Assembly: GCA_024401305.1 (NCBI GenBank)
Contig: JAKSLI010000007.1
Location: 1-64,000, forward strand
Reading direction: 5' to 3'
From: Bacteroidaceae bacterium
GTDB lineage: Bacteria > Bacteroidota > Bacteroidia > Bacteroidales > Bacteroidaceae
Length of the DNA: 64,000 bases
Shown one piece after another: positions 312 to 37,884 of the stretch. The position numbers were made by a program, and so were the translations under genes. Under the pieces are notes generated by a model that was not told the DNA's origin, did not search any database, and was given only the letters and a program-made list of their open reading frames with translations. The stretch's first letter is position 1; every line of letters begins with the position of its first letter.

Positions 312-536
312 AATATATGATTAGTTTATGTATTAATGATTCAGAATGTCTTTTTTACCTTTTAGTACCAATATCATGTAAAAGGTAAACGTGTTGTGCA
401 GGAGAAACTATCCATGACAAGATTTTTAATGCTGATACGCCATTATCGTTAATTTTTTCTTGGGGTAAATTCTCCCTGCTATGCGGCTGCTGCCTAACCG
501 TAATAGTTCTGTGATTTGTAAGATTAGTACATATAT
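312..536. other. Intergenic stretch, no convincing gene
   Basis: An inverted repeat at about 352-383 (TTTACCTTTT/AAAAGGTAAA) is the only clear structure; it lacks a U-tract in either direction. A 72-codon open frame lies on the minus strand (355-573) but overlaps the 3' end of the RNA element and has no recognisable motif, so it is not called as a gene. Confidence 0.4.
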
Positions 537-870
537 TAAAAAGACGTGGGCAGCTTGTACTACGCTTATCCACGTATTCTGGGCTCTGGTAAAGCCTTAT
601 TCCTTAGGATAAGCAACCAGAAGCCCACGTCAGAAAGTATCATAGTCCATACGACATTTGGACGTATGGATATAATACACCTGATGTGGACGCTTAGTTG
701 CGATACCTTCCAAGGAATTCGAAATTTACCAGATTTAGAATACAGAAGATAACGTTCGTAAACGTCCTTTTTTCGATAAAATGCGTCCAATGACGCCTTG
801 CGGCATCAAATGGACAGTTAAAGTCCGCGCTCGGACTTATGGTTATGTTGTTCCCAGAATGGTCTGGGAG
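537..870 (-). ncRNA. Structured RNA element, copy 1 (homologue of 37472-37847)
   Basis: Read on the minus strand, this stretch folds into the same series of hairpins as 37472-37847: TCCCAGA/TCTGGGA, AAGTCCG/CGGACTT, an ACGTT/AACGT hairpin, CCATACG/CGTATGG, GCTTATCC/GGATAAGC, and a closing GACGTGGGC/GCCCACGTC stem followed by a U-tract (TCTTTTTAAT at about 535-543) that looks like an intrinsic terminator. Sequence identity to copy 2 is patchy, but the stems persist. A -7 box (TAATTTTG, 1108-1115) and a CTTG -33 box (1136-1139, 20 bp apart) match those of copy 2, but here a decayed HTH gene lies between promoter and RNA body. I do not recognise it as RNase P, tmRNA, SRP or a group II intron. 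Confidence 0.6.
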
Positions 871-1107: not shown

Positions 1108-1139
1108 CAAAATTATGGAATTGTTTGCAACTATGCAAG
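1108..1139 (-). promoter_or_regulatory. Promoter of RNA copy 1 (minus strand)
   Basis: Minus-strand -7 box TAATTTTG (1115-1108) and -33-like CTTG (1139-1136), 20 bp apart. The 32-bp block is nearly identical to the one in front of RNA copy 2 (37853-37884). Confidence 0.55.
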
Positions 1140-35607: not shown

Positions 35608-37149
35608 CTACGGACAAACGGCGCGGACAGATTGACCGTCGCCGCGGCTGCCGTACCTGTCAACGTAGTCCGAATCGAAGCGCAGGTAGCACGCGTCGCT
35701 CGAGGAGCTCGTGCTGAGCGACGACGACCAGTAGTAGCCGCGGGAGCCAACATAGTCGAGCGAAATGTCGTAGCGATAGCCCGCAGCAGGGAGGAAAATG
35801 GAATTACCGTTCGTCTTAGAAGTCACCTTATATCCGTTCACGCCACTTTGGGTAGTCCAAGTCCAAGTGCAGTTTGTGCGGAGTTCATCCTGCTCAGCCT
35901 TTGTTGGCATGCGCCATGAGCCGCCCCAGTTGGCAACAGCAGCATCATCTGCGAGTTCAAGGGTAGTCTTGTCGTCAACAGTGCCATAGTTTGATGATGT
36001 GCAGTACTTGGTCATAGACGTAGAAGAGCCATTGCACCATTTGTAACTTTCCCAATTATAGCCACTCTTGCCGGTTTTCCAGTTTGTGCAAGGGCTATCC
36101 TGTGAATGGCCTTCAGTATAGTAAGGCTCTGTTTCGCCCCACGCGAAATAGTCTCCGTAGCCTTCTGGAGTACTTGCGCCGACGTTCATTGTCGCCCACT
36201 TCAAGCCGCTTGGCAAACCGAGGTCAACAAACTCGTGACCATTGACCATGTTTGCTGTTGAAGAGCCAGGATCGTCTCCTGTACTTATGCTTGCACAGTC
36301 AAGGCGCTTTGCCTTTATCTGACCGCGGCTTACGCTGATGGCATCATCGCTTGCGCCGAAACCTCTGATGTCACCGCTTGTGTCGTAGATGTTCCATTCG
36401 TATTCGTATGAGCCTACAGGAACAGGCACTATGAACAGGCGCTTGCATTCCGAGGTTGTCTCAGGGAATTTTATTGTTATCTTGTTCTCTGATTCGGATG
36501 TGGATGTGCTGTAGCTTGGTTCGCTTGCAGAGGTGTTGACAGTGAAGGTGCCAGAAATCTTCTTGTTCACTGCCTCAAACTCAAACTTGTTGCAACCAGC
36601 AGGAATCTTTGAGATTTCAAAGACAAAGTATCCACCAAGGTGCTTGAATTCAACACCACCGCCTGTGTAGTTAGCCAGCATCGGCATGTTGGCAGAGTTG
36701 ACGTTTCCTGTGATAGTGCCGAAACTTTCTGTTCCATAGGCATAATCGTACTCAGCAGGGAGATTTAGAGTCAGGGTTGAGCCTGAGAGGGAAGAGACAA
36801 GCGACTTTGGATAAACGAGTTTGTTTCCGATAGTATAGCCGGAACTGATAGAACCGATAAAGGTGCCTTTCGCCGTTCCTGCGCCCTTCGAAAGTTTGAA
36901 AGTAGAGAACTTAGTCGTGCTTCCATTTGTTTGAGAAACGCCGATACGGTCGTCTGCCATCCAGATGAATGACGCATCTGCCGCAAATGTAGCACGGCTT
37001 GCAGCATCTATCTGCGCTTGTTCGATAGTTGCGTTGATAACTTCAGGAGACTCCTGGTTGTTGACTGCCGCCTGTTCGTCGGCGACGTCACTGCTACAGC
37101 CTGCCAAAAGGGCTGCAAGCATGGAGAGTGATAATGCTTTCAGTTTCAT
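35608..37149 (-). CDS. Fimbrillin-like/FISUMP surface lipoprotein
   Basis: The start at 37149 gives 513 aa with a lipoprotein signal (LSMLAALLAGC). Upstream in-frame codons would remove the signal. Residues about 35-330 form a fimbrillin (Mfa/FimA-like) domain with IWMADDRIGVSQTNG near its start. The C-terminus (about 355-513) is a FISUMP domain (EFVDLGLPSGLKWATMNVG, then DYFAWGETEP, YYWSSS, and a GQSVRAVCP end). It is translationally coupled to the 68-aa gene just upstream (1-bp gap). The last ~150 bp are markedly GC-richer than the rest and full of NNC codons, the pattern expected of a C-type-lectin-fold variable region; see findings. Confidence 0.85.
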   Translation of the reverse strand: MKLKALSLSMLAALLAGCSSDVADEQAAVNNQESPEVINATIEQAQIDAASRATFAADASFIWMADDRIGVSQTNGSTTKFSTFKLSKGAGTAKGTFIGSISSGYTIGNKLVYPKSLVSSLSGSTLTLNLPAEYDYAYGTESFGTITGNVNSANMPMLANYTGGGVEFKHLGGYFVFEISKIPAGCNKFEFEAVNKKISGTFTVNTSASEPSYSTSTSESENKITIKFPETTSECKRLFIVPVPVGSYEYEWNIYDTSGDIRGFGASDDAISVSRGQIKAKRLDCASISTGDDPGSSTANMVNGHEFVDLGLPSGLKWATMNVGASTPEGYGDYFAWGETEPYYTEGHSQDSPCTNWKTGKSGYNWESYKWCNGSSTSMTKYCTSSNYGTVDDKTTLELADDAAVANWGGSWRMPTKAEQDELRTNCTWTWTTQSGVNGYKVTSKTNGNSIFLPAAGYRYDISLDYVGSRGYYWSSSLSTSSSSDACYLRFDSDYVDRYGSRGDGQSVRAVCP

Positions 37150-37150
37150 G

Positions 37151-37357
37151 TTATTTGTTGTTAAGTATATAAACTGAGTTGATTTGAGAAATTTCTTCGA
37201 TGTCTTCCCTACTGTCATCAATGAGTGTTTCTTTGATTTTTGGAGCACTCCAATCAATTGTTCCTGATTCTCCTGTGCCAGAGATGGTATCCAGCAGACT
37301 TTCCGCCTCGACAATGATAACTTTTGCTGATGGCTTTTTGTAATTTTTCTTTTTCAT
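37151..37357 (-). CDS. Small leader-like protein (KKxYxxP type) before the fimbrillin-FISUMP gene
   Basis: A 68-aa protein beginning MKKKNYKKPSAKVIIVEAES, then LLDTISGTGE. Very short proteins with this Lys-Lys-x-Tyr-x-x-Pro opening and a Leu-Leu...Ser-Gly middle are, to my knowledge, frequent in Bacteroidales beside surface-protein genes and have no assigned function. There is no signal peptide or Cys. It ends 1 bp before the lipoprotein ATG, so translation is coupled; it could be a translational leader, a peptide precursor or a pilin accessory. Confidence 0.65.
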   Translation of the reverse strand: MKKKNYKKPSAKVIIVEAESLLDTISGTGESGTIDWSAPKIKETLIDDSREDIEEISQINSVYILNNK

Positions 37358-37471
37358 TAGTTTATAGTGTTAATTTGATTAAACGAATTGGAACAATGGT
37401 GTAACAACATTGTTGCGTAAAACCAAGTCAGCACCCCAAACTCAGCACAAAAGTTTTTTTGATTAGTACAT

Positions 37472-37847
37472 AAATTAAAAAGACCGTGGGCAGCTGTACT
37501 ACGCTTATCCCACATTCCAGGCTCTGGTAAAACCTATGTATCAAGATAAGCAACCAGCTGCCCACATTAGAATAGTATTATATACCATACGCTCAAATGG
37601 GACGTATGGGCACAATACCAACTAATATGGACGCTTAGTTGCGATATCTTCCGATACATATTCAAATTTACCAGATTTGGAATGCAGAAGATAACGTTCG
37701 TAAACGTCCTTTTTCGATAAAGTTCGCCTAAATGACGCCTTGCGGCATCAAGTGGGCGTGAAAACCAAATGGGTTGTTATGCCATTTGGGTTAAAGTCCG
37801 CGCTCGGACTTATGATTATTTAGTTCCCAGGATTGTCTGGGATTATC
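37472..37847 (-). ncRNA. Structured RNA element, copy 2, with promoter and terminator
   Basis: A minus-strand transcript of about 375 nt. Successive hairpins: TCCCAG/CTGGGA, AAGTCCG/CGGACTT, a copy-2-specific AACCAAATGG/CCATTTGGGTT, TGACGCC/GGCATCA (one mismatch), ACGTT/AACGT, CCATACG/CGTATGG, GCTTATC/GATAAGC, and a final GTGGGCAGCTG/CAGCTGCCCAC 11-bp stem (37486-37496 with 37555-37565) enclosing the previous one and followed by GGTCTTTTTAATTT. The -7 box TAACTTTG (37860-37853) and CTTG (37884-37881) are directly upstream. No open frame covers it. Confidence 0.7.
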
Positions 37848-37852
37848 GGCTG

Positions 37853-37884
37853 CAAAGTTATGGAATTGTTTCCGACTATGCAAG
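37853..37884 (-). promoter_or_regulatory. Promoter of RNA copy 2
   Basis: TAACTTTG and CTTG with a 20-bp spacer, minus strand; near-identical to the block at 1108-1139. Confidence 0.65.

Follow-up and report, generated by a model that had tools for sequence, protein, structure and literature searches.

We report that a minus-strand RNA of approximately 375 nt at 37472-37847 (copy 1) and a diverged copy of it at 537-870 (copy 2) of the window, i.e. the whole stretch of 64,000 nucleotides that was analysed, belong to a structured RNA family of the class Bacteroidia that is absent from Rfam. Based on sequence comparison the RNA is very probably the leader of the next gene, and we lean towards the view that the family comprises cis-acting, riboswitch-like 5' leader RNAs that would act as a common switch for dispersed surface, secreted and defence genes. 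The leader part of this proposal is held firmly, the switch and its output loosely: strand exchange is a plausible mechanism for the switch about which we remain in some doubt, and termination as its output is a more tentative suggestion.

When the 64-kb window was searched with the gathering cut-offs of Rfam 15 no match was obtained, and a search around copy 1 with E-values up to 10 gave two matches, both at chance level, in agreement with the sequence-only reading, which could not assign the RNA to a known family. Searching 20 diverged loci against Rfam 15 with E-values up to 1 gave no match on the leader RNA; matches to MIR7533 and DUF2693-FD in diverged loci lay outside it and below cut-off. 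With copy 1 as query, blastn matched 22 of 149 genomes including its own, all in the genus of the window. A covariance model (R1) was generated from an alignment of 23 places found by blastn; alignment A2 holds 23 of the 26 printed places, L023 and L034 (long insert) and L026 (3'-end pattern absent) being left out. Of 200 genomes of the genus at least 149 were matched by R1 (54 of 86 when the more complete genomes are counted), as were at least 70 of 295 genomes of the order (50 of 184 genera), where matches with E-values near 0.001-0.01 may be due to chance. A second model (R2), based on 39 members, most of them diverged, matched at least 15 of the 395 phylum genomes searched; twelve of these 15 are outside the order of the window and in the same class.

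These genome counts include the window's own genome, and copy numbers as well as absences are lower bounds because only the best few candidates per genome were scored (10 for R1 in the genus, 7 for R1 in the order and 5 for R2 in the phylum). Moreover, of six genus genomes for which no match had been listed, three gained one with R2, which makes the absences soft. The genome of the window carries eight clear copies and two weak matches, one of which overlaps copy 2 on the opposite strand, and the other genomes in a closer look at eight genomes gave 2 to 11 matches each. The family had been described as present in two copies; that it is a structured family with compensatory changes stood, but six more clear copies, of greater divergence, are present in the genome. 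Scanning named genomes with a pattern gave at least 114 stretches, and among the matches listed are Prevotella, Bacteroides, Alloprevotella, Xylanibacter, Muribaculaceae, Paludibacteraceae and Odoribacter, while three listed titles (Clostridium, Clostridia and Erysipelotrichaceae) possibly represent binning errors; seven of 80 listed pattern-scan loci were checked with R2 and all seven matched. Leader loci include L218 of Xylanibacter rarus 109 and L200 of Bacteroides bouchesdurhonensis. In IMG/VR the pattern scan gave two stretches, in viral contigs. Removal of two duplicates from 164 hits left 162 distinct copies for the analyses below.

The two window copies are 76% identical across the aligned length and are predicted to be structured, with folding energies of z = -12.3 (copy 1) and z = -10.1 (copy 2) relative to 100 shuffles each. 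The hairpin CCATACG/CGTATGG is found in both, five T follow helix P4 in both, and the closing stem noticed earlier, GTGGGCAGCTG/CAGCTGCCCAC in copy 1 and GACGTGGGC/GCCCACGTC in copy 2, is one helix, P4, extended in different directions. Thus the RNA, its diverged homologue and these structural elements were found in the sequence as the sequence-only reading had described them. The parts of the two copies are as follows.

37853..37884, minus strand: copy 1 promoter block CTTG...TAACTTTG of Bacteroidetes type (sequence; pattern occurs four times in the genome)
37734..37841, minus strand: copy 1 5' hairpins, i.e. CCCAGACAATCCTGGG, AAGTCCGAGCGCGGACTT, one hairpin found in copy 1 only, and GATGCCGCAAGGCGTC (sequence and predicted fold)
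37477..37713, minus strand: copy 1 conserved core with P1, hp1, P3, hp2, P4 and U-tract (R1 174.8 bits, copies 1 and 2 themselves being among the sequences used to build R1, which bears on their R1 scores; R2 119.6 bits)
37653..37685, minus strand: copy 1 loop 1 with segments A, B and C of the predicted loop-loop interaction (pairing tests)
37622..37632, minus strand: copy 1 strand 1, GTCCATATTAG, which can form P3e with strand 2 (11 bp including G-U)
37585..37609, minus strand: copy 1 variable P3 hairpin CCATACG...CGTATGG (sequence; absent from minimal forms)
37555..37570, minus strand: copy 1 strand 2, CTAATGTGGGCAGCTG, with strand 1 (P3e) or strand 3 (P4) as possible partner
37512..37542, minus strand: copy 1 loop 2 with segments C', B' and A' (pairing tests)
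37486..37496, minus strand: copy 1 strand 3, CAGCTGCCCAC, with strand 2 (P4, 11 bp) or strand 4 (P6) as possible partner
37477..37481, minus strand: copy 1 U-tract, 3' of P4 (sequence)
37427..37437, minus strand: copy 1 strand 4, GGGGTGCTGAC, which can form P6 with strand 3; approximately 70 nt 5' of the first downstream ATG used
37151..37357, minus strand: copy 1 first downstream ORF, 68 aa (ORF call)
35608..37149, minus strand: copy 1 second downstream ORF, 513 aa, with a lipobox-like LLAGC (ORF call)
1108..1139, minus strand: copy 2 promoter block, same as in copy 1, approximately 240 nt 5' of the first hairpin of the RNA
537..771, minus strand: copy 2 conserved core (R1 188.6 bits, with the same bearing of its use in R1; R2 131.1 bits)
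623..631, minus strand: copy 2 P4 5' strand, GACGTGGGC (strand 2; sequence)
543..551, minus strand: copy 2 P4 3' strand, GCCCACGTC (strand 3), followed by TTTTT (sequence)
489..494, minus strand: copy 2 strand 4, GGCAGC, which can pair with GCTGCC of strand 3; approximately 180 nt 5' of the next ORF of at least 60 aa
33..311, minus strand: copy 2 first downstream ORF of at least 60 aa, 92 aa with CxxC motifs (ORF call)

The core is composed, in order, of helix P1, which in many Prevotella copies reads GGACGTTT/AAACGTCC, hairpin hp1 with a large loop, the variable hairpin P3 and hairpin hp2 with a second large loop, and the 5' hairpins upstream of it are variable among relatives. Forms of 164-182 nt with the P3 insert mostly absent and with the same loops were found at 11 of 13 diverged Bacteroidales loci and at eight loci from other orders; one minimal form, L316, has 165 nt.

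Complementarity between the loops of hp1 and hp2 extends over three segments, termed A, B and C. Among the 162 distinct copies the loop-loop energy was on average -28.6 kcal/mol with the copy's own partner compared to -12.7 kcal/mol with the loops of other copies, and the own partner ranked first in 137 of 162. For the segment, strand and U-tract tests three copies without the needed flanks were left out (n = 159). Taken alone, segments A and C gave own-partner median ranks of 0 (A) and 1 (C) of 159, whereas the negative controls were at chance (72 and 92 for mismatched segment pairs and 78 for an upstream-downstream control, of 159); the swapped-partner tests ignore kinship, for which these negative pairings are the control. 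At least 6 bp were found in 150 of 159 copies for segment A (6.4% of swapped pairs), in 120 for segment C (13.3%) and in 154 for segment B (56.3%). Distinct sequences number 132 for A and 137 for C; by position, standard pairs amount to 81.2% in A and 72.6% in C against 45.6% and 41.7%, respectively, with swapped partners, and both-sided changes occur at all 13 positions of A and C. Variants of B include UCUCGCA/UGCGAGA, CUUCGCA/UGCGAAG, UCUGGUA/UACCAGA, UCUAGCA/UGCUAGA and others. Covariation is thus strong for the loop-loop helices. Two other pairings were tried and set aside: the 60 nt 5' of the core paired with the loops or the 5' UTR at chance level (median ranks 75-86 of 159), and an extended duplex with the hp1 and hp2 stems swapping partners, which nested folding suggested and which we retain as an idea, was less well supported, with median ranks of 59 and 45 compared to 19 and 40 of 159 for the local hairpins.

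With respect to position, the motif TAnnTTTG, which according to the accessible text of PMC9723704 is a promoter motif of this phylum, is present within 320 nt upstream of 149 of 158 copies compared to 136 of 891 background windows (four of the 162 copies without 320 nt of upstream sequence were left out). A co-directional ORF comes next in 145 of the 151 copies with enough sequence, six having no co-directional ORF within reach and 11 of the 162 being too short for this count, and the distance from core to ORF is 40-85 nt in 111 of 145. Between core and start codon TAnnTTTG occurs in 3 of 132 gaps; this test and that for signal peptides were restricted to the early-starting first ORFs (132 of 145). 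Hence, the RNA lies 5' of and co-directional with a gene that lacks a promoter motif of its own. The ORFs were called mechanically (at least 60 aa), so some first ORFs are wrong, and in copy 1 the script start is later than the 68-aa ORF.

These numbers bear on the suggestion, made in the sequence-only reading, of a free-standing unit with its own promoter and terminator, i.e. a regulatory or architectural RNA that would be located before genes by chance or for action in trans. The upstream promoter and the terminator-like end were both borne out for the leader RNA, and the frequency of the promoter motif, P4 with a U-rich tract in 141 of 159 copies and the very stable fold are all as expected of such an RNA. 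However, because of the gene linkage and the missing promoters (no motif in 129 of 132 gaps), which are evidence of position, and with the 5' UTR pairing supported to some extent, we consider a free-standing RNA quite improbable. The unit as proposed was therefore not upheld: the RNA is better described as a 5' leader to a gene in the same orientation, and it appears to extend past the U-tract, with a 5' UTR segment pairing back.

As to the promoter block itself, CTTG...TAAYTTTG was recovered in both copies but is not specific to the RNA, the 32-bp block occurring four times in the genome: in the window at 37853-37884 and 1108-1139, and elsewhere at G000:C79:13754-13780 (L330) and G000:C64:20922-20948 (L329). 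The C79 block is followed by a 5' hairpin and a gene, presumably a methylase as judged from its motifs, but not by an RNA core (no model match), and the contig ends right after the C64 block. By eye, the minus strand at 880-1110, between promoter block and RNA of copy 2, has the translation QLAKRIGVGRSTISNIERGNPRVSF..., which we take to resemble a truncated Xre/HipB-type DNA-binding protein. Downstream of copy 1, Pfam searches gave no match for either the 68-aa or the 513-aa ORF; the latter, whose product is presumably fimbrillin-like, has a weak NCBIfam lipoprotein match below cut-off. The 92-aa ORF of copy 2 likewise has a weak NCBIfam match below cut-off.

The leader RNA has four tandem strands: strand 1 (after P1), strand 2 (GGCGUGGG), strand 3 (CUCCCACGUC) and strand 4 (in the 5' UTR), with 1:2 corresponding to helix P3e, 2:3 to P4 and 3:4 to P6. 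In copy 1 the 1:2 pairing is GUCCAUAUUAG/CUAAUGUGGGC (11 bp, G-U counted) and the 2:3 pairing GUGGGCAGCUG/CAGCUGCCCAC (11 bp); the closing stem of the first description is therefore the 2:3 helix. It is a fact of the sequence that the predicted pairings 1:2 and 3:4 on the one hand, and 2:3 on the other, exclude each other. By rank, each of P3e, P4 and P6 has a better partner in its own copy than in other copies (own-partner median ranks of 159: 21 for the whole of P3e, 38 for its base, 31 for P4 and 28 for P6). In P4, standard pairs amount to 97.7% compared to 95.5% in swapped pairs, with both-sided changes in 20 of 1200 cells; this helix hardly varies and hence carries little covariation (the pair counts for P4 and P1 cover rows with 8-letter strands, 150 and 136 of 162, respectively). 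P6, in which a strand just before and in the 3' side of P4 pairs with the 5' UTR segment (in copy 1 CAGCUGCCC with GGGGUGCUGAC; in copy 2 GCUGCC with GGCAGC), reached at least 6 bp in 104 of 159 copies compared to 44% of swapped pairs. It overlaps P4 by approximately three bases, so both could partly coexist. At least five U within the 8 nt after P4 are present in 141 of 159 copies and fewer in 18, and the tract looks poor in several members from other orders. Taken together, we regard a four-strand, attenuator-like part of the leader RNA as modestly supported. In L338 and L341, two loci from other orders read by eye, a changed strand 2 is matched by both strand 1 and strand 3. A hairpin presenting strand 4 was also considered and rejected, the signal being weak (at least 4 bp in 61 of the 120 of 159 copies taken in, compared to 49% of swapped pairs).

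Attenuators of the trp type also have four tandem strands, and they share with the leader RNA the exclusion of 2:3 by 1:2 plus 3:4, a U-tract after one helix and the 5' leader location. They differ in that the leader RNA has no leader peptide above chance (118 of 162 copies compared to 116 of 162 when the opposite strand is read and 76% of shuffled sequences), has its U-tract after 2:3 and not after 3:4, has a large loop-loop domain, and occurs as one class before unrelated genes. The conserved leader peptide that marks a ribosome-mediated attenuator was not found across the 162 copies.

Strand 4 ends 14-27 nt 5' of the start codon in 81 of 144 copies, which would suit a translational switch or ribosome landing structure in which P6, close to the start codon, would permit or prevent initiation, the U-tract serving as a flexible linker and not as a terminator. 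This phylum makes little use of Shine-Dalgarno pairing, and the weak U-tract in several members from other orders is in keeping with such a function. The U-rich tract that comes right after P4 in 141 of 159 Bacteroidales copies argues against it, as does the larger distance in both window copies, where strand 4 is approximately 70 (copy 1) and 180 nt (copy 2) from the next ORF and outside the 14-27 nt range, and we find translation as the controlled step rather unlikely.

Turning to the genes served by the candidate leaders, 92 Pfam families match among the 145 first genes. The commonest among the matches listed is LRR_5 (17 of 145), followed by LRR_8, carboxypeptidase-regulatory-like, dockerin, PEGA and C10 protease. 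CXXX-repeat radical-SAM target peptides (TIGR04117 precursors) account for five first genes, mad2 for three, and AbiH and a type I methylase for one each. At L313 the leader is followed by BrxP and BrxC of BREX as first and next genes, and the genes upstream of this leader are presumably phage-like. No common pathway is evident among the 145 first genes, nor the link to a ligand or pathway by which a riboswitch is recognised. By a home-made rule, 69 of the 132 first genes have a start resembling a signal peptide, as do 71 of the 137 later ORFs on the downstream side, compared to 47 of the 176 ORFs upstream; with later ORFs as rich as first ones, this enrichment belongs to the downstream neighbourhood and not to the first gene alone.

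Some additional observations concern single loci. As judged by eye, L313, L314 and L220 have a similar first gene after the leader. At L010, L013, L028, L167 and L194 the leader is located before cysteine-repeat peptides with a SRREFFKKAAKG-like start, and in L010 a radical-SAM-like gene comes after the peptide. L194 has leaders at 601-850 and 1331-1581 on the same strand, approximately 480 nt apart, and the ORF of a cysteine-rich peptide is located in between. In the set L009, L053, L143, L145 and L012, L054 the leader is followed by a small membrane-protein-like gene that recurs (in L009, the only one of these tested, a Tubulin_2 protein comes next) and, in other loci, by a recurring lipoprotein-like family.

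Leaders that are 86-98% alike are often located before unrelated proteins, with the similarity stopping 5' of the start codon, and some near-identical leader pairs also share their gene. L023 and L034, on two contigs of genome G083, are identical in the 3' part of the core and have different loops 1, which breaks the loop-loop pairing of L034; from their alignment this pair looks like recent gene conversion between leader copies. Multiple dispersed copies, often before unrelated genes, apparent gene conversion and the two copies in viral contigs could also mean that the sequence is the end of a mobile element or a gene-cassette signal operating at the DNA level. Yet no match was found in phage and plasmid collections at blastn sensitivity, neither terminal repeats nor target duplication were seen in the one near-identical pair aligned and inspected (L023/L034), and the upstream promoter motif and gene orientation are nearly fixed. 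This explanation is, like the free-standing RNA, unlikely, and we give it very little credence.

Unrelated, often accessory cargo behind one conserved structure, and leaders that occur without a shared gene, are in addition compatible with processive antitermination or an mRNA-protecting leader, in which the RNA would bind RNA polymerase or shield the 5' end constitutively, sensing nothing, and allow long or foreign operons to escape premature termination or decay. The put and EAR elements are RNAs that bind RNA polymerase. Mutually exclusive strands would, however, be needless for such a leader, which seems to us fairly improbable; with regard to EAR and put elements, no Rfam family matched in the searches described above.

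Among riboswitches, those with kissing loops, of which the cobalamin riboswitches are a class, share with the leader RNA the large leader, a loop-loop contact by a possible expression platform and several copies per genome. In contrast to these, the leader RNA has no Rfam match, its first genes have no evident common pathway, unlike those of most metabolite riboswitches, and its three-segment loop pairing changes sequence from copy to copy. ROOL, GOLLD, OLE and HEARO are large structured bacterial RNAs in Rfam that resemble the leader RNA in size and complexity, but none of them appeared in the Rfam searches, and the leader RNA is located before genes and gave only two IMG/VR stretches.

Concerning published candidates, PMC8040213, in its accessible part, reports thousands of candidate RNAs from human microbiomes, including HMP2_1881, a 108-bp element of Bacteroidetes near radical SAM genes that is reported to be expressed. 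It shares with the leader RNA the taxon and, as far as that part of the paper goes, some of the neighbouring genes (five of the 145 first genes being TIGR04117 precursors); compared by description, HMP2_1881 might be a part of the leader RNA. Conserved 5' elements without Rfam hits, upstream of pheA, hisG, ftsY and others, are described for Flavobacteriaceae in the accessible text of PMC9723704. Within the accessible parts of the open-access literature, including PMC8040213, PMC7160235, PMC9723704 and PMC7366714, no paper was recognised as describing the leader RNA, and our view that it is not in print refers to that literature. We therefore regard the family as new with respect to the libraries searched, and leader RNAs with exclusive helices, the kind to which it belongs, as already known.

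To return to the proposed leader switch, the loop-loop domain would act as a sensor or a rigid scaffold that biases the choice between P3e plus P6 and P4. P3e together with P6 would then correspond to read-through with the gene on, and P4 to termination, or a changed 5' UTR, with the gene off. One signal (a metabolite, ion, second messenger, temperature or protein) could in this way set up to approximately ten unrelated genes per genome, comprising surface LRR proteins, lipoproteins, RiPP precursors, proteases and defence operons, and duplication or gene conversion may have spread the leader to new places while leaving its genes behind. A more far-reaching version, which we put forward as speculative and rather doubtful, is a hitherto unreported signal-sensing class, spread over the Bacteroidia, with the loops locked by three co-varying helices, in which the modelled lock would consist of two parallel helices bridging two four-way junctions plus a central kiss, the RNA would be a global switch for surface and phage-defence genes, and copy-specific loops would avoid cross-pairing.

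The three-segment loop-loop lock represents an unusual RNA architecture, and the covarying helices make the leader model directly testable. If the model is right, gut Bacteroidales would have in this family a common regulatory RNA, present in up to approximately ten copies per genome and serving genes that include adhesin-like LRR proteins, RiPP precursors, proteases, and BREX and other defence systems. Its signal would then tell us what these bacteria monitor before they change their surface and their defences.
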